Of a DNA stretch of 64,000 nt, positions 3,407 through 23,759 are shown piece after piece. Below the pieces are notes generated by a model. It saw nothing but the letters and a program-made list of their open reading frames with translations, searched no databases and had not been told where the DNA came from. Where the stretch lies: positions 62,001 through 126,000 of the forward strand of contig JADLFL010000012.1 in assembly GCA_020845575.1 (NCBI GenBank), read 5' to 3'. The DNA comes from Acidobacteriota bacterium. GTDB taxonomy: Bacteria > Acidobacteriota > Vicinamibacteria > Vicinamibacterales > Vicinamibacteraceae. Positions within the stretch are counted from its first letter, which is position 1. The number at the start of each line of letters is the position of its first letter. Made by a program: the position numbers and the translations under genes.

Positions 3407-4693
3407 ATGGCGAAGAAGGTGATTGCCGTCCTGGCGACGCTCGACACGAAGGGACAGGAAGCCGCGTTCCTGCGTGAGCAACTCGAAGCACTGGGCAGCG
3501 GCGCGCTGCTCGTGGACATCGGCGTGATGGATGCGCCGGCCACGCGCGCAGACGTCACGCGCAGCCAGGTGGCGCGCGCGGGCGGGGCGTCGTTGAAGGC
3601 ACTCCAGGCGGGCAAGTCGCGGGAGACGTCGCAACCCGTGATGGCGGCCGGAGCCACGCGGATCCTCCTGAAGCGCCTGCAGGCCGGCGAGGTCCACGGC
3701 GTCATCGGTCTGGGCGGCCTGCAGGGCACCGCGGCGTGTACCGCCGTGATGCGCGCCCTGCCGTACGGCGTCCCGAAGGTGATGGTCTCGACTGTCGCCT
3801 CGGGCGACACCTCGTCGTACGTCGGCATCTCCGACATCACGATGATGTTCTCGGTGGGCGACATCATCGGCCTGAACACCTTCATGCGGAAGGTGCTCGC
3901 CAACGCGGCCGGCGCGGCGCACGGGATGGCGCAGGTCGGCGTGTCGTTGCGCACGCGTGCACGCGGCGGCAAGCCGCTCATCGGCATCTCGAACCTCGGC
4001 GTGCTGACGCGCGGCACGCTCCATGCGCTCGAACGCTTTCGCGCACGCGGATACGAGGCCATCGTGTTCCACGCCGTGGGCACCGGCGGTCGCGCGATGG
4101 AGCTGATGATGAAGCAGGGCATCATCGGTGCCGTCTTCGATTACGCGATGGGCGAGATCAGCGACGAGTTGTTCCACGCGCTGCGCGCCGGTGGACAGGA
4201 GCGATTGACGGTGGCCGGCGCGCTCGGCCTCCCGCAGGTGCTCGTGCCTGGTGGTTCCGAGCACCTGGGCATCCTCGTGTCGACGCCGCATCAGTTGCCG
4301 GAACGCTGGAAGGACCATCGCCACGTGTGGCACAACGAGGTCGTACTCGCGCCTCGGCTGAATGCGAAGGAGCTTCGCACAGTGGCACGCGAGGTCGGCA
4401 GGCGCCTGCAGCACACGCGCGGCAACGCCGTGTTGATGATCCCCACGCTCGGCACCGGAAGCTACGCCATGCCCGGCGGTCCGCTCAACGACCCGAAGGG
4501 CGACGCCGCGTATTTCGCCGCGCTGAAGAAGGCCATGCCGTCGACGATCGAGATCGTCGAGCGTCCGCTGCACGCGGAGGATCCGATGTTCGTCGACGAG
4601 GCGGTGGATCGGCTGATTGCGCTCGTGGAACGGCAGCAGGCTGGCCGCCGTCGTCCCGTCGCGCGCGCATCGCGTAAGACGAAGCGCACATGA
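3407..4693 (+). CDS. UPF0261 / Tm-1-like ATP-binding protein
   Basis: A 428-residue protein starting MAKKVIAVLATLDTKGQE, the family signature (TLDTKG). It has Gly-rich stretches GVIGLGGLQGTAAC and ASGDTSSYVGISDITMM, followed by the C-terminal half with FHAVGTGGRAMELMM and LVPGGSEHLGIL. This is the N-terminal, nucleotide-binding domain type of tomato Tm-1, here as a separate gene beside its usual partner. The start is 12 bases after the previous stop, and the stop overlaps the next gene by ATGA. The C-terminal tail is Arg/Lys-rich (RRRPVARASRKTKRT). Family assignment is firm, but the cellular role in bacteria is not established. Confidence 0.9.
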   Translation: MAKKVIAVLATLDTKGQEAAFLREQLEALGSGALLVDIGVMDAPATRADVTRSQVARAGGASLKALQAGKSRETSQPVMAAGATRILLKRLQAGEVHGVIGLGGLQGTAACTAVMRALPYGVPKVMVSTVASGDTSSYVGISDITMMFSVGDIIGLNTFMRKVLANAAGAAHGMAQVGVSLRTRARGGKPLIGISNLGVLTRGTLHALERFRARGYEAIVFHAVGTGGRAMELMMKQGIIGAVFDYAMGEISDELFHALRAGGQERLTVAGALGLPQVLVPGGSEHLGILVSTPHQLPERWKDHRHVWHNEVVLAPRLNAKELRTVAREVGRRLQHTRGNAVLMIPTLGTGSYAMPGGPLNDPKGDAAYFAALKKAMPSTIEIVERPLHAEDPMFVDEAVDRLIALVERQQAGRRRPVARASRKTKRT

Positions 4694-5445
4694 TCACCGG
4701 AGCGCTGCCGTTCGAGATCCGCAATGCGGAGCGAGAGCGGCTCGATCACGCCTTCGTGGGCGACGCGGGTCAGGCACCCGATCTCGTCGTGGTCATCGGC
4801 CACGGCGTGACGTCGCACTGGGACCGCCCGTGGCAGACCGATCTGGCTGCCGCGCTGGCGCAGGCCGGCATCGCATCGCTGCTGGTGTCCTTCTCCGGCA
4901 ACGGCGTGTCCGAGGGGGCGTTCGAGGCGAGCTGTCCCAGCAAGGAGTCAGGCGATCTGGGCAGCGTGCTCGACGCCCTCGAGGCGTGGGGCGTGCGACG
5001 GTTCGTCTATGCGGGCCACAGCATGGGCGGTGCCGTCGGCGTGCTCCGCGCGTCGGCAGACGCACGCATCGAGTGGCTGGTGTCGCTCGCGGGCATGTTT
5101 CACGTGCACGCCTTCATGGAACGCACGTTCGGCCACCTTGTGCCCGGCGAAGGACTGATGCTCGACAAGCCTGACTGCGTGTGGAACTCGACGCTCGCCG
5201 CCGACGCGCGTCGTCTCGGGTCTCTCACGTCGCAGGCAGCGGCGATCCACATCCCGTGGCTGCTGGTGCACGGCGATGCCGACGAACTCGTGCCGCTGCA
5301 GGATGCGATCGATGCACGAGCGGCGGCGGGCGGACGGCCCGATCTCGTCGTGCTGCCGGGTGTGGACCACAGGTTCACCGGCGCGATTCCCGCGATGGCG
5401 GGCGCCGTCGTGTCGTGGCTCGGAGCGGCCACTCGGAAGGAGTAG
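4690..5445 (+). CDS. Alpha/beta hydrolase
   Basis: A 251-residue cytoplasmic serine hydrolase. Features include the oxyanion-side motif HGVTSHW near residue 37, nucleophile elbow GHSMGG (about 111-116), the acid loop HGDADELVP (about 193-201) and the catalytic His in GVDHRF (about 226-231). There is no signal peptide. The ATGA overlap with the UPF0261 gene implies translational coupling and a shared pathway with the two preceding genes, so a carboxyl-ester or thioester substrate generated there is plausible. The exact substrate cannot be read from the sequence. Confidence 0.88.
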   Translation: MITGALPFEIRNAERERLDHAFVGDAGQAPDLVVVIGHGVTSHWDRPWQTDLAAALAQAGIASLLVSFSGNGVSEGAFEASCPSKESGDLGSVLDALEAWGVRRFVYAGHSMGGAVGVLRASADARIEWLVSLAGMFHVHAFMERTFGHLVPGEGLMLDKPDCVWNSTLAADARRLGSLTSQAAAIHIPWLLVHGDADELVPLQDAIDARAAAGGRPDLVVLPGVDHRFTGAIPAMAGAVVSWLGAATRKE

Positions 5446-5446
5446 C

Positions 5447-6763
5447 GTGCGCAGACGGGATTTCCTCAGGTCCACGGTCGTCGCGGGGGCCTCGGCCGGC
5501 CTCGGCGTGTCCACGCGTGCGGCAGGCGCCTCTCGCGTCGCGTCCGTCGCGCCGTCCGATCGCCTGCGGGTCGGCTTCATCGGCACCGGCGCGCGCGCGC
5601 AGGAGTTGATCGAGGCGTGCAACGCCACTGGCAGCATCGACGTCGTGTCACTCTGCGATGCCTACACAGGCCGGGCCGAACGCGCGAAGGCTCGCACGGG
5701 CGGGACGGCCACAATCGTCGGCGACTACCGGACGATCCTCGACGACAAGGGTGTGGACGCCGTCTTCATCGCCACTCCGGACCACTGGCACAAGGCGATG
5801 GCGGTGGCCGCGCTCGGCGCGGGCAAGGACGTCTACATCGAGAAGCCGCTGACGTACGCGGTGGCCGAGGGCCCCGAGATCATCGCCGCCGTGGACCGGC
5901 ATGCGGGCATCCTTCAGGTCGGCAGTCAGGACATCAGCACGCCGCGGCTCCACAAGGCGCGCGACATCGTGCGGAGCGGACGCCTGGGGCAGATCACGCT
6001 GGTGCGCGCGGCGTTCAACCGCAACACCGCCGGCGGCGCCTGGCTCTATCCGATTCCACCCGACGCCAGTGAACGGACGATCGACTGGCCGCGCTTCCTC
6101 GGGCCGGCGCCCGCGCGAGCGTTCAGCCCAGAGCGCTTCTTCCGCTGGCGCTGCTACTGGGACTATTCGGGCGGCCTCGCGACGGATCTCTTCGTCCACC
6201 TCGTCACGGACATCCACTTCATCATGGACGTGGAGCATCCGTCGCAGATCGTGGCCTCGGGCGCCACGCACCGATGGAAGGGCACGCACGAAGTGCCCGA
6301 CACGATCGACGCCATCCTCACCTATCCGGAGGGTTTCACCGTCACCCTGAGCTGCACGCTCAACAGCACGGGCGGCGAAGAAGGCGTGCACATCTACGGC
6401 ACCGAGGGGGCGCTCCACATCGTGGGCGATGGGCTGCGCGTGGCGCCGGAGCACGCGCGCAACTCGAACGGGTGGGTGGTGAGCGCCTGGCCGGAGGCCC
6501 TGGAACGCGCGTACTACGCCGATCCGGCGAACCGGGCCGACGAGCGCCCCTCGTCGCTGCCCGAGCAGGTGTTGCCGGCCGAGGAGCGATGGACCACCCG
6601 CGGCGAGGACCCGAGTGTCGCGCACGTCCGCGCGTTCGTCGCCGCCGTGAAGTCGCGAACCCAGCCCGTGGAGGACGCACGGTTCGGCCATCGCGCAGCG
6701 GCGTGTGCACACCTCATCAACCGGGCGATACGCGAGACCGCCGTCATGAAGTGGGACGCATGA
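5447..6763 (+). CDS. Gfo/Idh/MocA-family oxidoreductase, Tat-exported
   Basis: A 438-residue protein. The GTG start at 5447 is favoured over upstream in-frame starts because AAGGAG sits just before it and the product then opens with a twin-arginine signal (RRRDFLRSTVVAGASAG). The Rossmann nucleotide fold starts at VGFIGTGARAQ, and the family motif EKP appears in YIEKPLTYAVAEG. A middle GATHRWKGTHEVPDT segment and the C-terminal barrel follow. It probably carries out NAD(P)-dependent oxidation or reduction of a sugar or sugar-like substrate in the periplasm, as in many Acidobacteriota and Planctomycetes paralogues. It is one base after the hydrolase gene and overlaps the next start. Confidence 0.88.
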   Translation: MRRRDFLRSTVVAGASAGLGVSTRAAGASRVASVAPSDRLRVGFIGTGARAQELIEACNATGSIDVVSLCDAYTGRAERAKARTGGTATIVGDYRTILDDKGVDAVFIATPDHWHKAMAVAALGAGKDVYIEKPLTYAVAEGPEIIAAVDRHAGILQVGSQDISTPRLHKARDIVRSGRLGQITLVRAAFNRNTAGGAWLYPIPPDASERTIDWPRFLGPAPARAFSPERFFRWRCYWDYSGGLATDLFVHLVTDIHFIMDVEHPSQIVASGATHRWKGTHEVPDTIDAILTYPEGFTVTLSCTLNSTGGEEGVHIYGTEGALHIVGDGLRVAPEHARNSNGWVVSAWPEALERAYYADPANRADERPSSLPEQVLPAEERWTTRGEDPSVAHVRAFVAAVKSRTQPVEDARFGHRAAACAHLINRAIRETAVMKWDA

Positions 6764-8700
6764 CCCGCCGGACCGTGCGCGTCCTGCTGCTGGTGCTCGC
6801 CTGCCTCGGCGTGTGGCCGGTTGATGCGACCGCGCAGCGGCGGGTCGTCTGGGACCGGCTCGACGTCGAGGCCCACATCGACGCCACTGGTGCACTGACG
6901 GTGACCGAAGCGCATTCGATGGTCTTCACGGGCGACTGGAACGGTGGCGAGCGTACGTTCAACATTCGCGGGCGCCAGCGGCTCGAATTGCGTGGCCTGT
7001 GGCGCGTGAACGGCAACGAGCGCATCGCGCTCACGGAAGACGCCGCCCTCGGCGACGTGGACGACTACGCGTGGGCGGACCGCCAGCGCCTCCGATGGCG
7101 CAGCCGGCTGGCGTCCGATCCGCCATTCGCCGACACACCGCTCCGGTACGAGATCACGTACGTGCTGCGCGGCATTCTGGTCGACGAGGGCGGCACGTTC
7201 CGTCTCAACCACGACTTCGCGTTTCCCGATCGTGGCGATACCATCGAGGACTTCTCGCTCGATCTCACGTTCGACCCGGAGTGGCGCGCGCCCGACGACT
7301 TCCCCGGCACGTTCACGCGCACCATGATCGGCCCAGGTCAGGGACTCGTGGTGAACGTCCCCCTTCGCTTCGTGGGTGCTGAACTGCCTGTCGCGCTACA
7401 GCCGCAACGGCAGAGTCCGCTGCTCGGCCCCGCGGCGTGGGCACTCGTCGTGCTGACACTGGCTGGCATCGGCAGGTACTTCGCGATCGAAGGCGCGAGC
7501 GGACGGTTCGCGCCGCTCGAGACCGACATCGACGAGGCGTGGCTCGAGGAGCACGTGCTGCGCTACAAGCCCGAGGTCGTGGGCGCGGCGTGGGACAACA
7601 AGGTCGGCATGCCGGAGGTGCTGGCGGTGCTCGCGCGCCTCGAACGCGAAGGCAAACTTCGCAGCGTCGTGGGTGACGGTGGGGCCAGGTTCTCGCTGCA
7701 CCTGACTCAGGGACGCAATGTCTTCGTGGACTACGAGCGCGGCCTCATCGACGCCCTGTTCGCTGCTGGGCGCACGGAGATCACACCGGAGATCGTCCGC
7801 GCGCACTACCGGCACATGGGCTTCAATCCCGTCGAGTTCATCTCGTCGGGTGTGACCTTCGAGATGCGAGGGATCCTGCCTCCCGGCACGCCTCGTCCAG
7901 CGCCGCAGGGTTTCGTCTCGGCAGGTCTCATCTGCCTCGGTGTCGTCCTGCTCGGCGTCTCGGCGTGGTCGACGGGTCTGCCGCCGGCGGTGTGGCTCCT
8001 GCTCCTTCCCGCGATCGCCGCGGCCATCGGATTGTCTGTCGCGGCCTCGGTCTTCCGGCCGCGCCTCCATCTCGGGCGCATCGCCGCACTGGTGGCCCTC
8101 TTGCCGGCCGTGTTCGCGGCATGGGCGACGGCCTCGTGGCTCTGGCGTCTCGCGGGCAGGGTCCACCTCGATGAGCCGCCGCTCACGACGCTCGGCCTCG
8201 CGGGTGTCCTCGTCCTCGCGCTGGCCATGATCAACATGGCCCTCGTCGGGCCCCGATCCCTGGAAGTCCCGGAGGTCATCGCGTTCCGGCGGCGCCTGGC
8301 TGCGGCGCGGGGGTACTTCGCGCGGGAACTGCGCAAGCCCCGGCCAGCCCTGCGCGACCAATGGGCGCCGTGGCTGCTGGCGTTCGGCCTCGGTCCGCAG
8401 ATGGATCGGTGGTCCACGAGCCACCCTCGCGCGACGCACACCAATGACGACGAGCGGCACGCGTCACGATCCGACGACACGTCCGAGTCGTCGAGCAGCG
8501 CGCCCGCGTGGACGGGTTTCGGCGGCGGTCGCTCCGGCGGGGCGGGTGGTGGCGCCGCGTGGGCGACGGCGGCAGCGGCCCTCGCCGCCCCCATTGCGAC
8601 ACCGGGCAGCAGTTCGAGCGGCTCCGACAGCAGTTCCAGCTACTCCAGCAGCGACTCGAGCAGCAGCAGTTCCGGCGGCGGCGGAGGTGGTGGCTGGTGA
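6760..8700 (+). CDS. DUF2207 predicted membrane protein
   Basis: A 646-residue protein with a signal peptide (VRVLLLVLACLGVWPVDA) followed by a DUF2207 ectodomain (DVEAHIDATGALTVTEAHSM, then FNHDFAFPD-type strands). A membrane helix near residues 225-245 and further helices near 385-500 (SAGLICLGVVLLGVSAW, AVWLLLLPAIAAAIG, LAGVLVLALAMINMAL) follow. The C-terminus is a low-complexity Ser/Asp tail ending in seven Gly and Trp, typical of this family. Its ATG overlaps the oxidoreductase stop (ATGA). The function of DUF2207 proteins is unknown; they are predicted envelope proteins. Confidence 0.82.
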   Translation: MTRRTVRVLLLVLACLGVWPVDATAQRRVVWDRLDVEAHIDATGALTVTEAHSMVFTGDWNGGERTFNIRGRQRLELRGLWRVNGNERIALTEDAALGDVDDYAWADRQRLRWRSRLASDPPFADTPLRYEITYVLRGILVDEGGTFRLNHDFAFPDRGDTIEDFSLDLTFDPEWRAPDDFPGTFTRTMIGPGQGLVVNVPLRFVGAELPVALQPQRQSPLLGPAAWALVVLTLAGIGRYFAIEGASGRFAPLETDIDEAWLEEHVLRYKPEVVGAAWDNKVGMPEVLAVLARLEREGKLRSVVGDGGARFSLHLTQGRNVFVDYERGLIDALFAAGRTEITPEIVRAHYRHMGFNPVEFISSGVTFEMRGILPPGTPRPAPQGFVSAGLICLGVVLLGVSAWSTGLPPAVWLLLLPAIAAAIGLSVAASVFRPRLHLGRIAALVALLPAVFAAWATASWLWRLAGRVHLDEPPLTTLGLAGVLVLALAMINMALVGPRSLEVPEVIAFRRRLAAARGYFARELRKPRPALRDQWAPWLLAFGLGPQMDRWSTSHPRATHTNDDERHASRSDDTSESSSSAPAWTGFGGGRSGGAGGGAAWATAAAALAAPIATPGSSSSGSDSSSSYSSSDSSSSSSGGGGGGGW

Positions 8701-13807: not shown

Positions 13808-15279
13808 GACTGCATCGCGATGAGGATGTGGCGCTGCACCTTGCCGAGCGCGGTCCTGGGCAGCGCGTCGACGCGGATGAAGCGGCGCGGGACCTTGAAC
13901 GACGCGAGTTCGCCGCGCACGCGCGCGTCGAGTGCCGCGAGGTCGACGCCCTCGTCGCAGACGATGTAGGCCACGGGAAGTTCGCCACGAGTGTCGTCGG
14001 GCACGCCGACGACCGCCGCCTCGCGTATGCCTTCGTAGGTGGTCAGGAGATCCTCGATCTCGCGCGGGTACACGTTGAACCCGCCGCTGATGATGAGGTC
14101 GCTGCGTCGCCCCTGGAGCGTGATGTACCCATCCTTGTCACGCACGCCGATGTCGCCGGTGCGGAACCAGCCGTCGACGAACGCGGCCGCCGTGGCGTCG
14201 GGGCGGCGCCAGTATCCGGGACAGATGTTCGGCCCGCGCACCCACAGTTCGCCCGCCTCGCCATCGGCGACGACGATGCCGTCTTCCGACCGGATCTCGA
14301 CGTCGATGAGAGGCAGCGGCAGGCCGACCGTTCCCGCGCGCCTATCGCCGATCAGCGGGTTGCTGACGTTCATCATCGTCTCGGTCATGCCGTAGCGCTC
14401 GAGGATCACGTGACCGAAGCGTTCCGCGAATGCCGTCAGCACATGTGCCGGGAGCGGTGCCGATCCCGAGACGAAGAGACGCATGCGTTCACCGATCGCC
14501 CGCGCGCGATCCGGCGGGGCATCGAGCAGGCGGACGTACATCGTTGGCACACCGAAGAACAGCGTGGGCCGGTAGTCGTCGAACCAGTCGAGTGCCTTGG
14601 CGTACTCGAAGCGCTCGACGAGCCGCATGTGGCATCCGCTTGCGAGCCAGCACTGCACGCCGTTGCCGAGCCCGTGTACGTGGAACAACGGGAGCGCGGC
14701 GAGGTATCGGTCGCCCGCGGTGATCCCCCACGTGGTGACGAGCGTGAGCGCGTTGGCGGCGAAGTTGCCGTGCGTGAGGATCGCGCCCTTGGCCGTCCCC
14801 GTCGTGCCTGACGTGTAGACGAGTGCCACGGGCGTGCCCGCCGTGCTGCGCACGCGTGGCGGCGTCGCGGCTGCGGCGTCGGCGTCACGCTCCAGCGCGT
14901 CGGCATCCCACACGGGCGTACCGTCCGGTACGTCCCCTGCGTGATCGGGCGTCGTGATCACGGCGACAGGAGCGGCGTCGCCGACGATGTGTCCGACCTC
15001 GCGCGCTCGATAGAGCACGTTGATCGGCACGACGATGGCGCCGAGCTTCACTGACGCGATCCAGAGATCGATGACGAGGAGACGATTGGGCAGGCAGAAC
15101 GCAATCCTGTCGCCTGGGCGCAGTCCTCGCGCGTGCAGACTGGCGGCGAGGCGGTCGCTGCGGGCGTCCAGATCGCCGAAGGTGAAACTCCGGCACGTGC
15201 CGTCCTGCTGTATGACGTCGAGCGCGGGCGTCGCCGCCCGGCCGCGCAGCGAAAGGTCGTAGAGATCGAGCAATGACAC
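13804..15279 (-). CDS. matB: Malonyl-CoA synthetase-like acyl-CoA ligase
   Basis: A 491-residue ANL-superfamily enzyme with a GTG start. Core motifs are YTSGTTGTAKGAILTHGN (P-loop, about 153-170), YGMTETMMNVSNP (A5 region), GWFRTGDIG (A7), GRRSDLIISGGFNVYP (A8) and the catalytic Lys in PRTALGKVQR near the C-terminus. The TETMMNVSNPLIGDRRAGTVG stretch is the form seen in MatB malonyl-CoA synthetases rather than long-chain ligases. It probably converts malonate, CoA and ATP to malonyl-CoA. It pairs with the downstream permease. No decarboxylase (matA) is present nearby, so the malonyl-CoA may feed biosynthesis. Confidence 0.78.
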   Translation of the reverse strand: MSLLDLYDLSLRGRAATPALDVIQQDGTCRSFTFGDLDARSDRLAASLHARGLRPGDRIAFCLPNRLLVIDLWIASVKLGAIVVPINVLYRAREVGHIVGDAAPVAVITTPDHAGDVPDGTPVWDADALERDADAAAATPPRVRSTAGTPVALVYTSGTTGTAKGAILTHGNFAANALTLVTTWGITAGDRYLAALPLFHVHGLGNGVQCWLASGCHMRLVERFEYAKALDWFDDYRPTLFFGVPTMYVRLLDAPPDRARAIGERMRLFVSGSAPLPAHVLTAFAERFGHVILERYGMTETMMNVSNPLIGDRRAGTVGLPLPLIDVEIRSEDGIVVADGEAGELWVRGPNICPGYWRRPDATAAAFVDGWFRTGDIGVRDKDGYITLQGRRSDLIISGGFNVYPREIEDLLTTYEGIREAAVVGVPDDTRGELPVAYIVCDEGVDLAALDARVRGELASFKVPRRFIRVDALPRTALGKVQRHILIAMQS

Positions 15280-15460
15280 GGTTCAGCGCTCCATGTAGTC
15301 CCGGTGTGCGCTCGCCTCGGCTGTCGCGGCGGCCACGTCACCCTGCAGCCGTCGAAGAGCACCGAAGAGCAAGGCACACAGAACCCAGGCTTGTCGGGTC
15401 GGCACGAGGGGTGTCGCGTTCATCGCATGAACACCAATGGGCCAGTTGTGGTTATCTGTA

Positions 15461-15474
15461 TGCCATATTAGGCA
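15461..15474. promoter_or_regulatory. TGCC-N6-GGCA dyad in matB/regulator intergenic region
   Basis: A short dyad with an AT-rich centre (ATATTA), flanked by ATCTG on the left and AGAT on the right, which lengthens the symmetry imperfectly. It lies about 180 bases upstream of the matB-like start and 85 upstream of the regulator. It could be a regulator site or overlap a promoter. Confidence 0.35.
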
Positions 15475-15521
15475 GATGAGGCGCGATACTGCGTCTTGTG
15501 GTGACCTGTGTCAACACCAGC

Positions 15522-15542
15522 GAAGTTCAGAAAATGAACTTC
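15522..15542. promoter_or_regulatory. Inverted repeat GAAGTTCA-N5-TGAACTTC, likely operator
   Basis: Two perfect 8-base arms with spacer GAAAA, placed 16 bases before the ATG of the HTH/sugar-binding regulator. The position fits autoregulation of that gene. No T-run follows, so it is not a terminator. Confidence 0.6.
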
Positions 15543-15558
15543 AATAAGGTGGGTGCTG

Positions 15559-16662
15559 ATGATTGCGAAAACGCGCGACATGCGAGGGTCGAGCACGCTG
15601 GCCAGGGGGCTCGCCGTGCTGCGTCACGTGGAAGGGATGGCGCGCCCGGCCTCGGCGACCGAGATCGCAACTGCCGTCGGCATGCATCGCGTCAGCACTC
15701 TCCGCCTCCTGCACACGCTGGAGAGCCAAGGCTTCCTGCGTCGCGATGGCGCACGACGCTACAGGCCCGTCGAGCGCCAGCGGACCGCGCGCATCGGCTA
15801 TTGCGCACCACTCGCGGGCACCGCCTTCCGTCGCGCGATTGTCGAGAGTCTCCAGCGATCGGCTGCCGATGCGGGTCTCGATCTCACGACGCTCGACAAC
15901 CCGGACGACGATGCGGAGACGGCGCGACACAACGCGGAACTGCTCATCGATCTTGGCGCGCGAGTCGTCATCGTGTTCCAGCCACAGCAGCGCGTGGCAC
16001 ACGCCCTGGCCGACGTGCTCCATCGTGCTGCCGTGCCGTTCATCTCCGTCGACTCACCCATCCCCGGTGGGTTCTACTTCGGTGCCAACAACTTCGAGGC
16101 CGGAAAGCTGGCGGGCCGTGCGCTCGGCGATTTCGCGCGGCGCACCTGGCAGGGGCGTTGTCACAGGCTCGTGCTGCTCGAAACGCATCTCGCGAGTCAT
16201 GACGTCGAAGCCCGACTCAGTGGCGCGCTGGCCGGCGTGCGGGAGGTGCTGCGCGGATTCCCGGAAGAGCGTGTGCTCCACCTGGACGGCGAGGGCCAGC
16301 ACGACAAGAGCCTCCAGTCGCTGCGCGCCACGCTGGAGGGATATCGGCCCGGGACGAAGACGCTCGTGTCATGTGTCAACGAGCCCGCGGCCCTGGGTGC
16401 CATCGACGCCGTGCGCGCGCTCGCGCGCGAGGCCGATGTGGCCATCGTGGGACAGAACGCGACGGCAGACGTCCATCGCGAACTGGCAGATCCTGCCAGC
16501 CCGCTGGTCGCCTCCGTGGCGTACTTCCCCGAGCGCTACGGCGGAAGACTTCTCGATCTCTGTCAACGAGTGCTCCGACGGGAGGCGGTGCCGCCCGCCG
16601 TGCTCGTCGAGCACGTCGTGCTCACGCGCGAGAACTGGCGCGAGTACTATCCGCCCGCCTGA
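15559..16662 (+). CDS. Transcriptional regulator: IclR-type HTH fused to periplasmic-binding-like domain
   Basis: A 367-residue protein. ATG 15559 is preferred over GTG 15553 because AAGGTGGG lies just upstream. Residues about 8-75 form an IclR-like winged helix (STLARGLAVLRHVEG, SATEIATAVGMHRVSTLRLLHTLES, GFLRRDG). Residues about 80-360 are a LacI/RbsB-type ligand-binding fold (IGYCAPLAGTAFRRAIVESLQ, DLGARVVIVFQPQQ, VPFISVDSPIPGGFYFGANNFEAGKLAGRALGDF, VAIVGQNATADVHRELADP). IclR proteins normally carry a GAF-like sensor, so this combination is unusual. It probably senses a sugar or small carbohydrate and controls itself and a neighbour (matBC or the downstream amidohydrolase). Confidence 0.82.
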   Translation: MIAKTRDMRGSSTLARGLAVLRHVEGMARPASATEIATAVGMHRVSTLRLLHTLESQGFLRRDGARRYRPVERQRTARIGYCAPLAGTAFRRAIVESLQRSAADAGLDLTTLDNPDDDAETARHNAELLIDLGARVVIVFQPQQRVAHALADVLHRAAVPFISVDSPIPGGFYFGANNFEAGKLAGRALGDFARRTWQGRCHRLVLLETHLASHDVEARLSGALAGVREVLRGFPEERVLHLDGEGQHDKSLQSLRATLEGYRPGTKTLVSCVNEPAALGAIDAVRALAREADVAIVGQNATADVHRELADPASPLVASVAYFPERYGGRLLDLCQRVLRREAVPPAVLVEHVVLTRENWREYYPPA

Positions 16663-16856
16663 CCGACCATGGCGTCGCGGCTTGAACCGCGTGATGTCCA
16701 TGGGCGCATCGGAGCGACGCGGACAGGCGATGGGCCTGGTGGCGCGGCGACACACGCCGCACAGGAACTGTCCCCATGCCTCCGACGATGCCATGTCCAG
16801 TACACCGTCCCGCAACGACTCCGATGCTTCCGATTGTCCGAAAGGTGAGGTGCTTC

Positions 16857-18101
16857 ATGCTTCGAGCCACTCTACTCGTGCTTGTGTTCGCACCGGCGCT
16901 CCTGGCCCAGACCAGCTACGACCTGCTGCTGAAAGGCGGCCACGTCATCGATCCGAAGAATGGCATCAATGCTCTGATGGACGTGGCGGTGAAGGACGGG
17001 AGGATCGCCCGCGTGGCGGCGAACATCCCGGCCGCCGACGCCACCAGGGTGGCGGATGTGACAGGGCTGACGGTGACGCCTGGACTGATCGACATCCACG
17101 TACACGTCTATCAACGGCCCGACAACAGGGCCATGGCACGGGACAGCAACGTGCAGGCCGACGCGCACACGTTCCGCAGCGGGGTGACGACGATTGTGGA
17201 CGCGGGCTCATCCGGATGGCGGGACCTGCCGGAGTTCCGCAGGCGCGTCGTGGAGAAGTCACGGACGCGGGTGCTGGCGTTCGTGAACATCTCCGGCTCC
17301 GGCATGGGACTCGACAAGGAGGATGACCTCGGCGAACTGGATGTCGAAGCGACAGTGCGCGCCGTGAAGGAACACCGTGACATCGTCGTGGGCATCAAAT
17401 CGGCGCATTTCGGCGGCCCCGGCTGGGAGTCGATCGACGCGGCCGCCAGGGCGAGCCGGGCCGTCGAGATGCCGGTGATGGTGGACTTCGGCTATATGAA
17501 CGACGTCCGCAACCTGACCGGTCTTCTTGCTGACAAGTTGCAGCGAGGCGATATCTACACGCACTGTTATTCCGGGCATCGTGAGGAGCTGCTTCAGGAC
17601 GGCAACATCAATCCGGCGATGTTCACCGGCAGGAAGCGAGGCATCTTCTTCGACGTCGGGTTCGGCGCAGGCAGCTTCTATTGGTATGTCGCGGCTCCGG
17701 CGCTGCAGCAGGGCTTCCCACCGGACTCGATCTCCACCGATCTTCATACGGGCAGCATGAACGCCGGCATGAAGACGATGAACAACTCGATGTCTTCCGT
17801 GCTGAACCTTGGCGCCTCCCTCGCGGACGTGATCGCCATGTCCACCTGGAATCCGGCGAGACAGATCAAACGTCCCGAACTGGGCCACCTCGATGTCGGC
17901 GCCGGAGCCGACATCGCCGTGCTCCGTGTAGACGAAGGGCGGTTCGGATTCGTCGACTCCGCCGGTGCGGTGTATCCGGGCCGTCAGCGGATTGTCACCG
18001 AGCTCACGATCCGGGACGGGCGCGTGGTCTGGGATCTCAACGGCAGGACCAGCACGAGCTGGAAGGAGTTCCCGTACGACAGGAAGAAGTGGACGAAGTA
18101 G
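16857..18101 (+). CDS. Secreted amidohydrolase/deacetylase-family metallohydrolase
   Basis: A 414-residue protein. The ATG at 16857 follows AGGTGAGG and gives a clear signal peptide (LRATLLVLVFAPALLAQ). Metal-site motifs follow the amidohydrolase order: LIDIHVHV (HxH, about 81-88), a likely carboxylated Lys in VVGIKSAHFGG, His in YTHCYSGHRE and Asp in STDLHTGSMN. Composite-domain strands frame the barrel (VIDPKNGINALMDVAVKDGRI; GAGADIAVLRV). It belongs to the amidohydrolase/deacetylase group, with the substrate unknown. It lies 194 bases downstream of the regulator, and I see no other signal in that gap. Confidence 0.87.
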   Translation: MLRATLLVLVFAPALLAQTSYDLLLKGGHVIDPKNGINALMDVAVKDGRIARVAANIPAADATRVADVTGLTVTPGLIDIHVHVYQRPDNRAMARDSNVQADAHTFRSGVTTIVDAGSSGWRDLPEFRRRVVEKSRTRVLAFVNISGSGMGLDKEDDLGELDVEATVRAVKEHRDIVVGIKSAHFGGPGWESIDAAARASRAVEMPVMVDFGYMNDVRNLTGLLADKLQRGDIYTHCYSGHREELLQDGNINPAMFTGRKRGIFFDVGFGAGSFYWYVAAPALQQGFPPDSISTDLHTGSMNAGMKTMNNSMSSVLNLGASLADVIAMSTWNPARQIKRPELGHLDVGAGADIAVLRVDEGRFGFVDSAGAVYPGRQRIVTELTIRDGRVVWDLNGRTSTSWKEFPYDRKKWTK

Positions 18102-18262
18102 ACCGTCGCCTCGCGCCGCCGCGCAGGCGAGGCCGTGAGCACGCGCGCGCTGTAGACGATGGAAACCCGACGAGCCGCCGCGAAAGTTCGTTAGGATGGA
18201 CTATCGCGCGCGTGCTCCCCGGCAGCAGCGTCGCAGGGATGCCACGGTAAGCAAGGTCCTTG

Positions 18263-19594
18263 ATGTCCGCCAAAGTCAAGCCAACGGTTCTCGTCGCCGA
18301 CAACAATCTCCATACCCGCATGACCACGACGCGGGTGCTCATGCGCGACTTCGACATGGAGGTGAGCGAAGTCACCAACGGGATGGACGCCATCGAGCGT
18401 CTCAGCACGCGGGCGTTCTCGTTCCTCGTGCTCGACCTCGATCTCCCGATGATCGACGGCCTCCGCGTGCTCGAGATCCTGCGCCAGGGGCCCGACGATG
18501 CGGCGATGCCGACAGTGATCATCGCCGAATCCCCTGACGAGAGCACGGTGCGCCGCCTCATCGAGCTCGGCGTCGGGGACCTGATCCTGCGCCCGGTCGA
18601 CCCGCGCGTGCTGAGCCAGCGGCTCGCCACGTTCATCCAGCGGCATCGACATGCGCTCGGGCGCGACGAGTACAAGGATGGTGGCAAGCTTGCCAAGCCC
18701 GGCGCCACGCGCGTGCTCATCGCCGACGGCGACGCGAACTTCCGCGAGTTCGTCGTGTCGACGCTTCGAGAGAAGGTGACGACCACGGAAGCCGAGACGG
18801 GCGTGGCCGCACTCAAGGCCTGTCTCGAGTCGCCACCGGATGTCGCCCTCATCGGACACGATCTCGGCCTTCTCAAGAGCGACCTGCTCGTGGCGGAGCT
18901 CCGACGCGTGCCCGCATTGCGGGGCACGCGCGTCGTGGCCATCGCTCCGCAGAATCATCTCGAGAGCGTGGTGAAGTCGGCCGCCTACGACGGCGTGCTC
19001 GTGCGGACGTACATTCCGAAGCTGTTCGGCGATCAGTTCGATCGCCTGCTCCAGCGGGCGGACGGCCTGAATCGCGCCCTGGCCCTGTATCCCGCGCTGC
19101 AGGCGCGGTTGACGAGCGCCGTCGAGCAGGTCTTCGGCATGATGCTCGGCGTCGACGTCACGCCGCTCGACGCGTCGCCGGGCAAGGAACGCGACGGAGA
19201 CGCGATCTCGTGCCTGGTCGAGATCGAGGAGCTCAGCGAGCAGCTGGTCCTGCAGTTCCAGCTCACCATGCCGTTGGAACACGCGCGATTTGCGGCTGCC
19301 AGGATGCTCGGGACCTCGGACGCCGTGATCACGCCCACCGAACCAGACGCAGCTGTCAGCGAGATCGCCAATATCATCACGGGCCGCCTGCGGACGGCGT
19401 TGAACGAGCGCGGCATCAGCGTCCGCTGCGGATTGCCGACGATCCGTCATCACGCCGTGCGCGGCTGGGCGCCACCCGCCGACGGCGACGCCATCGTCGT
19501 CTTCTTCGAGGCGCACGCGCACGACCTCTGTATCTGCACGACCCTGTCCGGCAGCAACGCCGCCGGCGACAGCTCGCCCGACACGCCCGCCTGA
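18263..19594 (+). CDS. Response regulator with two REC domains and a CheX-like phosphatase domain
   Basis: A 443-residue protein; ATG 18263 is preferred over TTG 18260, with AAGG upstream. REC1 (about 7-125) has the acidic pair in VLVADN and phosphoacceptor Asp58 in LVLDLDLPMIDG. REC2 (about 149-265) starts VLIADGDANF, but the phosphoacceptor position reads ALIGHDLGLL, so the Asp seems lost. Residues about 275-435 resemble CheX/CheC, with the signature Glu and Asn in VSEIANIITG (366-370). It is probably a signalling protein joining a receiver to an aspartyl-phosphate phosphatase. No kinase or chemotaxis genes are adjacent. Confidence 0.78.
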   Translation: MSAKVKPTVLVADNNLHTRMTTTRVLMRDFDMEVSEVTNGMDAIERLSTRAFSFLVLDLDLPMIDGLRVLEILRQGPDDAAMPTVIIAESPDESTVRRLIELGVGDLILRPVDPRVLSQRLATFIQRHRHALGRDEYKDGGKLAKPGATRVLIADGDANFREFVVSTLREKVTTTEAETGVAALKACLESPPDVALIGHDLGLLKSDLLVAELRRVPALRGTRVVAIAPQNHLESVVKSAAYDGVLVRTYIPKLFGDQFDRLLQRADGLNRALALYPALQARLTSAVEQVFGMMLGVDVTPLDASPGKERDGDAISCLVEIEELSEQLVLQFQLTMPLEHARFAAARMLGTSDAVITPTEPDAAVSEIANIITGRLRTALNERGISVRCGLPTIRHHAVRGWAPPADGDAIVVFFEAHAHDLCICTTLSGSNAAGDSSPDTPA

Positions 19595-19634
19595 TCGTCG
19601 TTCGTCCGCTTGACGCGGCGATCGCGCCGTGCCA

Positions 19635-19667
19635 CTGTCTCCACTATGTCAGCCAGTGGAGAGACAG
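19635..19667 (+). terminator. Weak hairpin downstream of REC-REC-CheX gene
   Basis: CTGTCT-CCACT pairs with AGTGGA-GAGACAG around a nine-base loop, with a two-base bulge. No U-tract follows. It may be a factor-dependent terminator or RNA-stability stem in the 250-base gap before the RidA gene; nothing else stands out in that gap. Confidence 0.3.
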
Positions 19668-19844
19668 GGCGTCTCGATCTGAAGTGCCTTGGGAGCAGGA
19701 TCTCACCACGTCGGCTGCCGAGATCGAGATCGCAAGGTTACCTGCTGCCGCTGGACGGGTGGAACTCTGGTATCCGGGACCGATCAAGCGGCATTTACGT
19801 GCACCCGAAGACGGGCGTGATTGGCCAACAGCGCCGGCCGCGCC

Positions 19845-21092
19845 ATGAACGCTGACGCCCTCGCCGCCATGCTGGCCGGTGCGCTGTCGGTCACGAGCGC
19901 GGCCGTGCTCGTCGCGCAGGCTCAGGTGCCGATACGAGTCATCTCGCCGCCGGGCACAACGGTTGCCGGGCCGTACAGTCCCGGCGTGTTCGCGGGTGGC
20001 TTCCTGTACGTGTCGGGGCAGGGTGGACGCGATGCGGACGGCCGGCTGCCGGACACCATCGAAGGCCAGGTGCGCCAGGCGCTGCAGCACGTGAAGGCCA
20101 TCGTGGAGGCCGGCGGGCTCACGATGGCGCATGTGGTGTACAGCCAGGTCTATCTGACAGACATGGCCGACCACGACGTGATGGACCGCGTGTGGCGCGA
20201 GTTCTTCCCCACGGCGCCGCCGGCGCGCGCGGTTCTCGGCGTGTACAGCCTGCCGGCCGGCATCGCCGTCGAGATCAACGCCGTCGCGTATCGGGACCTC
20301 GAAGGCAGGCGACCGATCGTCCCACCCGGATACCCGCCGTCGTGCTCGTGGTCGCCGGGCGTGATGGCCGGCACCCGGTTGTTCCTGTCGGGATCGCCTG
20401 GCGCCGACGTGGCGACGGGGCGCGTGCCGCCGGACCCCGACGACCAGGTGCAGCTCGCGCTCGACAACATGCGGCAGATCCTGGTCGCCGCCGGACTCGA
20501 CTTCCGTCACGTCGTGTTCGTGAACCCTTACATGACGAGCGCCGCCTCGCGCCGGATGAATCCCATCTACGCGAAGCACTTCGAGTTCGGCAACACGCCG
20601 GCGCGCGCGACCATCAACGTGACGAGCCTGCCAGGCGGCAACACGATCCAGTTCACGGGCGTGGCGATCGCCGACCTCTCGCGCCGCCGCGCGTTCAGGC
20701 CGAAGAACATGGCACCCAGTCCGACGGCGAGTCCGTGCGTGCTGGCCGACGACACCTACTATTGTTCGGCCAAGGGCCCGTTCACGCCTGGCCCCGCCAG
20801 ACTTCAGGGCATCTGGGTGGGCAGCGTCGATGCGCAGATCCGCCAGACGATGAGGAACCTGCTCGACGGGCTTGAAGAGGCAGGGCTGGCGCTCCCGAAC
20901 GTCGTCGCGACGAACGTGTATCTGGACGACATGGACGACTACGCGCGCATGAATCGCGTCTATGCCCAGTACTTCCCGGACAATCCGCCGACGCGGACGA
21001 CCATCGCGCAGGTGGCCCCGACCGACCGCACGTCCAGTAGCGGCGACACGTATCCAGGCCTCGAGCAGATTTCGCTGATTGGGGTGAAATGA
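19845..21092 (+). CDS. Secreted triple-RidA (YjgF/UK114) domain protein
   Basis: A 415-residue protein with a probable signal peptide (AAMLAGALSVTSAAVLVAQAQ). Three RidA-like domains follow, at roughly residues 30-145, 150-270 and 285-415. Each has the opening GPYSPGV / SWSPGVMAG / KGPFTPGP type, a GQVRQAL / DQVQLAL / AQIRQTM helix, and the key Arg in PPARAVLGV / TPARATINV / PPTRTTIAQ. Free RidA is a homotrimeric enamine/imine deaminase with active sites at subunit interfaces, so a single chain could fold as a pseudo-trimer. The terminal Glu of the motif is kept in domain 1 (AVEINAVA) but altered in domain 2 (IQFTGVA). No strong ribosome site precedes the ATG; TTG 19821 is an alternative. Confidence 0.82.
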   Translation: MNADALAAMLAGALSVTSAAVLVAQAQVPIRVISPPGTTVAGPYSPGVFAGGFLYVSGQGGRDADGRLPDTIEGQVRQALQHVKAIVEAGGLTMAHVVYSQVYLTDMADHDVMDRVWREFFPTAPPARAVLGVYSLPAGIAVEINAVAYRDLEGRRPIVPPGYPPSCSWSPGVMAGTRLFLSGSPGADVATGRVPPDPDDQVQLALDNMRQILVAAGLDFRHVVFVNPYMTSAASRRMNPIYAKHFEFGNTPARATINVTSLPGGNTIQFTGVAIADLSRRRAFRPKNMAPSPTASPCVLADDTYYCSAKGPFTPGPARLQGIWVGSVDAQIRQTMRNLLDGLEEAGLALPNVVATNVYLDDMDDYARMNRVYAQYFPDNPPTRTTIAQVAPTDRTSSSGDTYPGLEQISLIGVK

Positions 21093-21133
21093 CGTACGCC
21101 CCGAGATGCGGATCGCCCGCGCGGTTCCAGCGA

Positions 21134-22627
21134 TCAGGCGGGCAGCACGTTCGCGTTGAGGCGGAACAGGTTGTCCGGGTCGTACTGCTTCTTGACCGCG
21201 ACCATGCGGGGAAAGTTCTCTCGATAGTTCGCGTTCAGGACGGCGCGTGTCTCGTCGTTGACTTCGTTGATGTAGAAGCCGCTGGTCAAGGGCTCGATGG
21301 CTCCCCAGTACTTGCGCGCCCACCCCATGTGCGGCGCGCCATCGTCGCCGACCTTCCATGACACGGCGGCCATCAAGGCGTGTTGAGCATGGCGGTGCGG
21401 AAAAGCCGCCGCGCCGACCGGCTGCCTGCCGATGGCACCGCCGGCGTGCTGGGTGAAGACGGCGGTGGAGCGGACCGGATGTCCCTCGAACCCGTCGATG
21501 ATGCCGGAGATCAGTTGCTCGCTGATGCCGGTCGTGAACCCGCTCTTCATGTACTCGCCCATCCCGCGCACGTCGGTGTCGTCGCCCGAACGCTGGACGT
21601 CCACGTAGCGCTGCGCCTTGATCGTGTCGGCGATGGGCGTCCCGAGCGTGCGCAACGGCGCGAGGTCGCGATCGGCGTTGTCGCCGCAGTAGCAGACGTG
21701 CAGCAGTGCGATGCCGTCCTTGCCGCCGGGAGGCTGCGCCATGACGAAGTCCACGTAGACCTCGTCGGACGCCCTGGCGGAGAACTCGGCGTAGAAGCGC
21801 AGCACCTCGCGCGCCTTCGCGATCGGAAAGACCAGGTCGCCGGCCGTGACGGTGCCGCCGAACGGATGCAACTGGAACTCGAAGCTGGTGACGACGCCGA
21901 AGTTGCCGCCGCCGCCGCGTACACCCCAGTAGAGGTCGGCGTTCTCATCCTTGTCTGCGTGACGGACAGAGCCGTCGGCGCAGACCACGTCCACACCGAC
22001 AACGTTGTCGACAGCGAGGCCGTACCTGCGCGCCAGCCGGCCGAACCCGCCGCCCGTCGTGAGGCCGCCGACGCCGGTATGCGAGACCGTGCCGAGCGGC
22101 GTCACCATGCCGTCTGCCGCTGCTTCGTGATCGACGAGACCGAGCAGCGAACCACCCTCGACGTACGCACGCCTGGTCCTGGTGTCCACCCTGACGCCAC
22201 GCATGCCGGACAGGTCGATCATCATGCCCTTGTCGCACGTGGACAGACCCGAGAAGCTGTGGCCACCGCACTTCACGGCCACGAGCAGGCCGTGCGCGGC
22301 AGCAAAACTCACGGCCGTGCGGACGTCGGCGGTTCCAGTCGGCCGGACGATGAGCGCCGGACGCCTGTCGATCGCCGGGTTCAGCACGCGCCGGGCGGCC
22401 TCGTACCCGGGAGACGACGACAGCAGCGTCGGGCCACGGAGGCTTGCGGCCAGATCCTTGATGGCTGCCGCCGGCAACGTGACGGCACGACCGTCACCAC
22501 GCACCGCATCGAGATCGGCCATCGTCGCCGGTGCGGCCTGATATGCACGGCTGAACGCAAGGCGTGGGGCGAGCGGAACGAACCCGGCGACAGCCGCGGC
22601 CGACTGAAGGAATGCGCGTCGATGCAT
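21134..22627 (-). CDS. FAD-linked oxidase, berberine-bridge-like, Tat-exported
   Basis: A 497-residue protein starting HRRAFLQSAAAVAG, a twin-arginine-like signal. The FAD-binding_4 domain contains VAVKCGGHSFSG (His for 8-alpha linkage) and GVGGLTTGGGFGRLARRYGL. The C-terminal BBE segment is YDPDNLFRLNANVLP. In bicovalent relatives a Cys lies before GVGG (GTCPTVG type); here the stretch reads GTVSHTGVGG, so only single covalent attachment is expected. It probably oxidises an alcohol, sugar or phenolic compound with O2. It converges on the RidA gene and diverges from the vWA gene. Confidence 0.86.
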   Translation of the reverse strand: MHRRAFLQSAAAVAGFVPLAPRLAFSRAYQAAPATMADLDAVRGDGRAVTLPAAAIKDLAASLRGPTLLSSSPGYEAARRVLNPAIDRRPALIVRPTGTADVRTAVSFAAAHGLLVAVKCGGHSFSGLSTCDKGMMIDLSGMRGVRVDTRTRRAYVEGGSLLGLVDHEAAADGMVTPLGTVSHTGVGGLTTGGGFGRLARRYGLAVDNVVGVDVVCADGSVRHADKDENADLYWGVRGGGGNFGVVTSFEFQLHPFGGTVTAGDLVFPIAKAREVLRFYAEFSARASDEVYVDFVMAQPPGGKDGIALLHVCYCGDNADRDLAPLRTLGTPIADTIKAQRYVDVQRSGDDTDVRGMGEYMKSGFTTGISEQLISGIIDGFEGHPVRSTAVFTQHAGGAIGRQPVGAAAFPHRHAQHALMAAVSWKVGDDGAPHMGWARKYWGAIEPLTSGFYINEVNDETRAVLNANYRENFPRMVAVKKQYDPDNLFRLNANVLPA

Positions 22628-22784
22628 GGTGGGGCTCCCGATGAGTCAACGCTGCGACCCAGGCAACCGAACGGCTGAGCTGCGGACCTTGTCCGGCGAG
22701 GGGCGCATGTCCGGATCGCGCCGTGCTTTGCGTATCCACCGATAGAGGAGGGCTGTCACGGAGACGGCCCCGCCGGAGACCGGA

Positions 22785-23759
22785 ATGCCTTACGTACGAA
22801 CCACTGCGGCGGGCCTGCTGACTGCAGTCACGCTGATTGTCTCGACCGTGAGCCTGACAGGCTCACAGCAGGATACGTCCAGCACCATGCTGGTCCTCGA
22901 TGCCTCGGGTTCCATGTGGGCCCAGGTCGGGGGCCGCACGAAGATCGCGATCGCACGCGACGCCGTCGATACGATGGTCTCGACGTGGCGGGGCGGTGAC
23001 CTCGGCCTCATGGCGTACGGTCACAATCGCAAGGGCGACTGCAACGACATCGAAGTCCTGCACCCGATCGGCCGTGCGGACGCGGCCGCCATGCGCCGCA
23101 CCGTCGGGGGCCTGAATCCCAGGGGCATGACACCCATCTCCGCCTCGGTCCGCCAGGCGGCAAACCTGCTGCGCTTGTCCGAACGGAAGGCGACAGTGAT
23201 CCTGATCAGCGACGGCGAAGAGACATGCGGCGCCGATCCCTGCGCCGTCGGCAAGGAACTGGAAGCCATCGGTGTCGATTTCACCGCCCACGTCGTCGGC
23301 TTCGACATCGCCCGCGGCAGTCGCGCACGCCAGCAGCTCGAATGCCTGGCGGCAAGCACGGGCGGGCGCTATCTTGACGCGCGCGACGCGCGTGAGCTCT
23401 CCGAGGCCCTCGCTGACGTCGCCGCCGCGTCGAGTGGCCCGCTGACCGGCGCACAGGAGTGGTTGCCCGGGTATTCACTGGGGTGGGTGGCGGGCACGGT
23501 CGTCGACGGCGTCGAGGACAACCACGCGACGCGCAGCGTAGCGTTCAGCGTCGAACAGACCGCCAGGGACTGCCAGACGCTGTGCAACGGCGAGGCAGGT
23601 TGCGCCGGCTGGCACTATGAGCCCACCGGGAGCTATTTCATCGACCATCCGCGCTGCTTTCTCAAGGGGTACACGGCCCCTCTGCGATTGGAGAAGCAGG
23701 ACGACAACTGGATCGCGGGCGTCAAGCCGGGCGCCAGGATCGTGATGGAGCAGCCATGA
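22785..23759 (+). CDS. Secreted von Willebrand factor A protein with C-terminal PAN-like domain
   Basis: A 324-residue protein with a signal peptide (TAAGLLTAVTLIVSTVSLTG). The vWA domain (about 33-210) has a full MIDAS: DASGSMW, the Thr in GMTPI and Asp in ISDGEE. A Cys-rich C-terminal region (about 240-320: RDCQTLCNGEAGCAGWHYE, HPRCFLKGY) looks like a PAN/apple fold. It probably binds a protein or carbohydrate at the cell surface. The following lipoprotein gene overlaps by ATGA, and a Ser/Thr kinase follows 47 bases later, suggesting one functional unit. Confidence 0.8.
   Translation: MPYVRTTAAGLLTAVTLIVSTVSLTGSQQDTSSTMLVLDASGSMWAQVGGRTKIAIARDAVDTMVSTWRGGDLGLMAYGHNRKGDCNDIEVLHPIGRADAAAMRRTVGGLNPRGMTPISASVRQAANLLRLSERKATVILISDGEETCGADPCAVGKELEAIGVDFTAHVVGFDIARGSRARQQLECLAASTGGRYLDARDARELSEALADVAAASSGPLTGAQEWLPGYSLGWVAGTVVDGVEDNHATRSVAFSVEQTARDCQTLCNGEAGCAGWHYEPTGSYFIDHPRCFLKGYTAPLRLEKQDDNWIAGVKPGARIVMEQP

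Follow-up and report, generated by a model that had tools for sequence, protein, structure and literature searches.

The biology of RidA proteins centres on the shielding of cytosolic PLP enzymes from 2-aminoacrylate, and chorismatase is itself a single-chain, RidA-like pseudo-trimer ring. A tandem form was named 3x-RidA by Niehaus et al. in 2015 and described as "presumably covalently linked trimer units" (PMC4433059). In TdcF the active site lies between subunits, the conserved residues being Tyr17, Gly31, Asn56, Asn88, Arg105, Pro114, and Glu120; a bond from Glu120 to residue 107 spans the interface, and Asn88 sets the orientation of Arg105 (PMC1884159). The ong cluster of Pseudoalteromonas employs OngB, OngC, and OngD for N-acetylglucosaminate and contains an essential RidA gene whose role was left unexplained (PMC9537276). 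In the PLP lyase DGL the residue His-163 protonates an intermediate so that an imine leaves, the H163A variant releases an enamine, considered potentially cytotoxic by the authors, and three arginines form a cluster near the phosphate (PMC9529869).

The window (the whole stretch of 64,000 nucleotides that was analysed) encodes a 3x-RidA protein that, with a probability of about 0.5, would act as an exported closed pseudo-trimer hydrolysing enamines or imines outside the cytoplasm together with a deacylase and a PLP lyase. The sequence with its domains and conservation, the gene neighbourhoods of relatives, the loss of the lyase histidine, and the half-site pattern are computed results, from which we infer the export, the ring fold, the substrate class, and the activity in this route. 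The preliminary description of the locus had supposed different imines or a binding role; this is now replaced by a more specific proposal, in which the protein would work alongside a deacylase and a PLP lyase, both exported, the lyase by Tat.

The triple RidA gene, its N-terminus, and its relatives

The open reading frame starts either at TTG 19821 (423 aa) or at ATG 19845 (415 aa) and ends with the stop at 21092 on the + strand. Three RidA-like domains in one protein had been noted in the preliminary description, with the key Arg kept in all of them and other site residues differing; the frame and its three PF01042 stretches (E 1.6e-65), each domain singly above the Pfam cut-off, confirm the first point, and the presence of E. 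coli R105 in every domain together with the differences at positions 17, 31, 88, and 120 bears out the others (Table 1). The Q at position 120 of domain 3 lies outside the Pfam match, and an insertion precedes the last strand of this domain. The protein scored 207.2 bits with NCBIfam TIGR00004 (Rid family detoxifying hydrolase), above the cut-off of 106.25.

Table 1. Features of the window discussed in the text, in window positions.
Feature	Position	Strand	Basis
IclR-type HTH with periplasmic-binding-protein-like sensor domain (PF13407)	15553..16662	+	Pfam; upstream of amidohydrolase
Amidohydrolase/deacetylase family metallohydrolase (PRK09237), predicted to be exported	16776..18101	+	NCBIfam, tblastn, alignment residues
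Response-regulator receiver and CheX-like protein	18260..19594	+	Pfam; between amidohydrolase and 3x-RidA
3x-RidA protein, putatively exported	19845..21092	+	ORF list, Pfam, NCBIfam, dN/dS
Signal-peptide-like segment, 26 residues ending AQA	19845..19922	+	sequence, hydropathy, orthologue N-termini; cleavage position by eye
RidA domain 1	19962..20291	+	Pfam; E. coli positions 17, 31, 88, 105, 120 = Y, G, D, R, E
RidA domain 2	20340..20645	+	Pfam; E. coli positions 17, 31, 88, 105, 120 = W, G, N, R, Q
RidA domain 3	20730..21005	+	Pfam; E. coli positions 17, 31, 88, 105, 120 = A, A, N, R, Q
FAD/BBE oxidoreductase with RR signal motif	21134..22627	-	Pfam, tblastn; convergent with 3x-RidA

Orthologues in two congeners share amino acid identities of 0.786 and 0.785 with the window protein, and the corresponding dN/dS values are 0.135/0.688 and 0.137/0.832; the gene is under purifying selection and the frame is therefore a working gene. 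This conservation and the recurrence of the same architecture in many genomes establish that it is not a chance frame. An Rfam search of window positions 15000-23000 gave no match up to E 0.1, promoter prediction at the locus found none, and four terminator-like sites against 1.7 expected were not informative.

Read from ATG 19845, the N-terminus consists of a hydrophobic run (highest mean over 15 residues, 2.03) followed by AQA; basic residues are absent from its n-region, which would gain one Arg with the TTG start. The signal peptide announced in the preliminary description is thus retained as a hydrophobic run with AQA but is weaker than claimed, and export is supported more by homologues than by the window protein's own N-terminus. 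Both orthologues have better, conventional signal-like N-termini. In a screen for a 15-residue window of mean hydropathy at least 1.6 ahead of domain 1, 36 of 39 triples, all from the window's phylum, had such a segment, the exceptions being L114, L059 (1.55), and L063, which points to an exported branch; lipobox-like cysteines were seen at the N-termini of several triples. The Haem_bd domain ahead of the RidA domains in L114 may itself be a sign of export.

The statement that RidA is normally cytosolic needs qualifying, since 14 of 40 single-domain RidA proteins sampled from the same phylum passed the same hydropathy threshold, although long frames were over-represented in the sample and a few of the 14 may owe their segment to read-through ahead of a cytosolic start. 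Single-domain proteins with Sec-type signals (L116, L117, L119, L120, L126, L128, and L150) and with RR motifs (L135 and L139) were both found; export is therefore possible without covalent linkage. The rule that exported single-domain RidA proteins use Tat as folded trimers and triples use Sec was considered and rejected, the signals being mixed among the single-domain proteins. A single chain may nevertheless aid the assembly of a low-abundance ring after Sec export, without being a requirement for it.

The distribution of triples was surveyed in 297 genomes of the window's phylum with a profile (A1) built from 20 triples, and at least 27 genomes had, among the matches listed, one covering at least 189 of the 378 profile positions. 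From these matches, that is, by similarity to triples, 41 wide loci were picked, the window locus included; they contained 41 multi-domain RidA frames, 39 with three recognised domains and two with two. Contigs C45 and C24 of the window genome each carry a further triple frame. When 161 domains were placed in a tree they grouped by position, with 13 label changes against 89.1 after shuffling, and the order d1-d2-d3 is therefore old within each type; one fusion event and several are both compatible with this tree. Two scans of viral contigs for relatives that could deepen the alignment gave none that was confirmed, and a scan of genome contigs gave only two single-domain haloarchaeal RidA.

Two triples of unusual composition were encountered. 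The one on contig C24 of the window genome (L047:5174-6688) has lost Arg105 throughout, its three domains having L, a gap, and A at this position, and retains the three-domain architecture and a signal-like N-terminus; it is likely a non-deaminase derivative, and some triples accordingly cannot be ordinary deaminases. Upstream of it lies a secreted-looking frame resembling, by eye, a TIM-barrel sugar isomerase. In the other (L114:7291-9057) the Pfam domain Haem_bd (PF14376, E 8.7e-44) is fused ahead of the 3x-RidA, a combination so far unexplained.

Unequal active sites and the predicted fold

Two half-site groups, Gly31 with Glu120 and Asn88 with Arg105, were taken from the TdcF text (PMC1884159). 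Loss of Glu120/Gly31 (E) was then compared with loss of Arg105/Asn88 (R) in the same or another domain of the 39 triples. The pairing E1-R3, E2-R1, E3-R2 gave 19 doubly defective sites, a count reached in none of 5000 shuffles (mean 5.1), and 11 one-sided defects, while same-domain pairing (5 doubly defective, 39 one-sided) and the opposite ring (7 and 35) were both at chance. As three pairings were compared one of them must win; the margin is wide. The pattern was also obtained with Arg105 alone (9 against 2.4 after shuffling) and in sets of 19 and 11 non-redundant rows. Independent contrasts on the tree leaned the same way, E1-R3 in 3 of 3, E3-R2 in 3 of 3, and E2-R1 in about 0.9 of 1, and among the pairings listed E3-R3 leaned as well (2.3 of 3); the independent events are few (4 changes for E1, 5 for R3), and no single pair can reach p 0.05. 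The most economical interpretation of these alignments has each site formed where two neighbouring domains meet, with domain 3 also touching domain 1, and has sites disappear as units; the paired defects fit a closed ring with inter-domain sites. Arg105 is kept in 37, 36, and 32 of the 39 triples in domains 1, 2, and 3, respectively.

Under the E(i)-R(i-1) pairing the window protein would have one complete site, composed of domain 1 (Gly31, Glu120, and Tyr17, which we take to belong to the Glu120 half-site) and domain 3 (Asn88 and Arg105). One of the other two sites is doubly damaged and the second is damaged on one side, so that the conserved Tyr17, Gly31, Asn88, and Glu120 are present together only in this composite site.

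The fold was predicted by AlphaFold2 from a three-row alignment (window, L014, and L015), and the best model reached pLDDT 70.5 and pTM 0.79, its last 31 residues being poor; the five models had pLDDT values of 70.5, 68.9, 45.1, 44.5, and 37.9, three of them poor. The single RidA chains listed by Foldseek each covered one domain of this model, and its alignment with chorismatase 5ag3_C ran to 417 columns. The top VIA-align matches were likewise chorismatases (4bps, 5ag3_A, and 5a3k_C), with Z 24.7-24.8 over 283-285 residues at rmsd 3.0-3.1, spanning model residues 23-387 at 13% identity; with 4bps (Z 24.8, 283 aligned, rmsd 3.0) the model shares the overall single-chain fold of chorismatase. 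Structure prediction had been suggested in the preliminary description as a check of its covalent pseudo-trimer with unequal sites. The pTM 0.79 model with its whole-chain chorismatase match favours that architecture, but the alignment-free fold was poor (pLDDT 36.1, pTM 0.32). The architecture thus gains from a moderate-confidence model and from the paired decay of half-sites, although the idea is not new.

Neighbouring genes and the DgaE-like lyases

The gene at the upstream end of the neighbourhood joins an IclR-type HTH to a PF13407 domain, to our knowledge an unusual pairing, and its product is a possible regulator. The window amidohydrolase scored 416.8 bits with NCBIfam NF006689 (cut-off 371). 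Homologues with 46-49% identity were found by tblastn near the triple in L046, L050, L051, L060, and L064, that is, in 6 of 41 loci with the window and with a 24% match in L107 left out; in paralogous loci they stand directly upstream of 3x-RidA. No homologue of the convergent FAD/BBE oxidoreductase was found by tblastn in the 40 other wide loci; this enzyme is exported-looking, and such enzymes might make imines.

A DgaE/SelA-like PLP gene lies near the triple in 8 of 41 loci (L046, L048, L049, L050, L051, L060, L064, and L112); the window is not among them, and in the other 33 the retrieved flanking sequence contains no such gene. In both orthologue loci (L048 and L049) this gene is the next one downstream of the triple, and the window genome carries the lyase orthologue, 81% identical, about 180 kb from the triple (G000:C12:262652-264190). 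Since seven genomes of the family contain 17 strong DgaE-like matches, about 2.4 per genome, 8 of 41 is well above random placement, by an informal comparison in which several loci are orthologous. The remaining triple loci had no shared catabolic neighbour that was recognised.

Single-domain RidA genes follow B-type triples on the opposite strand. A single-domain counterpart of the trio was observed in L135 (G005 contig C53, about 4300-7700), where a DgaE-like lyase, an amidohydrolase, and a single-domain RidA with a Tat-like signal (NRRGFMRK) stand in a row. A second amide-hydrolase association is that of an Amidase-family gene (cluster c6) near 3x-RidA in five loci (L053, L055, L056, L061, and L115), which spans two different families of genomes; PF01425 was present in the three members tested (L053, L061, and L115).

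All nine DgaE-like N-termini that were read carry an RR motif, for example, TRRTFF or TRRDLF, which is typical of Tat, the system that exports folded cofactor-bearing proteins. When ten DgaE-like proteins encoded at these loci were aligned to DGL (7lc0), all of them lacked His-162 and His-163 and kept the PLP lysine (SGxK; Lys-217 in the DGL paper, residue 213 in the PDB chain). Of the DGL arginines, Arg346 is absent in all ten, Arg301 is kept in two, and Arg332 in six. The lyase of L050 scored 184 bits with the equivalog NF047797, below its cut-off of 600. With both histidines and most of the phosphate-binding arginines missing, these exported enzymes resemble lyases that act on substrates without a phosphate group and may release an enamine; a different residue could also replace His-163 as the proton donor.

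A proposed extracytoplasmic route and its alternatives

According to the proposal, 3x-RidA would fold as a closed pseudo-trimer of three domains in one chain, where each potential site would take Glu120/Gly31 from domain i and Arg105/Asn88 from domain i-1, cyclically. The substrate would be an N-acylated 2-amino acid or amino-sugar acid, whose amine an exported amidohydrolase of the PRK09237 type would unmask. A DgaE-like PLP ammonia-lyase, exported by Tat, would next remove water to give the enamine, and 3x-RidA would convert the enamine or imine into a 2-oxo acid and ammonia at its intact site. A narrower version is put forward tentatively: the lyase has lost its imine-releasing histidine and would therefore hand a free enamine to the exported, covalently closed RidA ring, where whole sites would be switched off and one or two would be working.

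The whole-chain chorismatase match (Z 24.8) and the fact that the window protein has just a single complete canonical site would also suit an exported pseudo-trimer that, like chorismatase, catalyses another reaction as a hydrolase or lyase, having one site specialised for another carboxylate substrate and a PLP-lyase neighbourhood that is incidental or belongs to a different pathway step; most triple loci indeed have other neighbours, an Amidase-family gene in five of them. This is rather unlikely, as the complete site keeps the RidA Tyr, Gly, Asn, Arg, and Glu, the NCBIfam cut-off for Rid detoxifying hydrolases is passed, a PLP lyase stands beside both orthologues, and identity to chorismatase is 13%. 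It is improbable, too, that the protein is a non-catalytic carboxylate binder or scaffold that might, for instance, hold the exported lyase or sense what this enzyme produces: the three-domain paralogue L047 without any Arg105 and the haem-binding fusion L114 would agree with such a role, but both are exceptions and the window branch retains one full site. Cytosolic RidA becomes a chaperone after N-chlorination (PMC7464077), and a periplasmic holdase, in which this role was moved to the envelope and the active sites are remnants, could be imagined; it is made quite improbable by sites that are kept or lost whole instead of drifting and by the retention of Arg105 in 37, 36, and 32 of 39 triples. 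A cytosolic location, with an N-terminal hydrophobic stretch that does not serve as a signal peptide, would be favoured by the missing basic residue ahead of the run from ATG 19845 and by the triple L063 without a hydrophobic segment; it is very improbable in view of the segment in 36 of 39 triples, several with lipobox-like cysteines, and the conventional signal-like N-termini of the orthologues.

If the exported enamine-hydrolysing ring is the correct reading, enamine chemistry, PLP enzymes, and a clean-up partner would operate together outside the cytoplasm; the position of 3x-RidA beside an exported vitamin-B6 enzyme in relatives is a hint that enamines may be made and cleared there. A natural triplet with one complete site would also allow a direct test of what has long been assumed about RidA, namely whether a site functions independently of the others and from which pair of subunits it is assembled. 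It also suggests a specific role that could be looked for in the essential RidA of clusters such as ong, which combine a deacetylase with a PLP deaminase.

In the open PMC literature (titles and the beginnings of abstracts) no mention of an exported 3x-RidA or of an exported lyase trio was found, and the term "3x-RidA" occurred only in PMC4433059. Among known systems, the homotrimeric imine deaminases RidA/YjgF/TdcF share the domain fold, the site residues, and the inter-subunit position of the site (PMC1884159, PMC7311433), whereas the window protein is one chain with three unequal sites, one of them complete, and is predicted to be exported. The chorismatases FkbO/Hyg5 (4bps, 5ag3, and 5a3k) share the whole-chain fold of the model but differ in substrate and reaction, show 13% identity, and are not exported RidA triplets. 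DgaE/DGL belongs to the same family as the partner lyases and has the same PLP lysine; the partner lyases differ in their Tat-type motifs and in the absence of His-162/163 and most phosphate-binding arginines. The closest described trio is ong, where a deacetylase, a PLP deaminase, and RidA also occur together; its enzymes were suggested to be cytoplasmic, with a D-aminoacylase-type deacetylase, a fold-type III PLP enzyme, and a single-domain RidA (PMC9537276). The 3x-RidA of Niehaus et al. (for example, EF_0115 of Enterococcus faecalis) has the same three tandem RidA domains and presumed covalent trimer, and the part of that paper available here mentions no export, unequal sites, or partner genes (PMC4433059), whereas the present branch appears mostly exported and some of its members have genes for a deacylase and a PLP lyase nearby. 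Both the triplet architecture and the notion of a covalent trimer are thus already published (PMC4433059), and the export, the whole-chain match of the model to chorismatase, the partner genes with the missing lyase histidine, and the half-site pattern go beyond that account.
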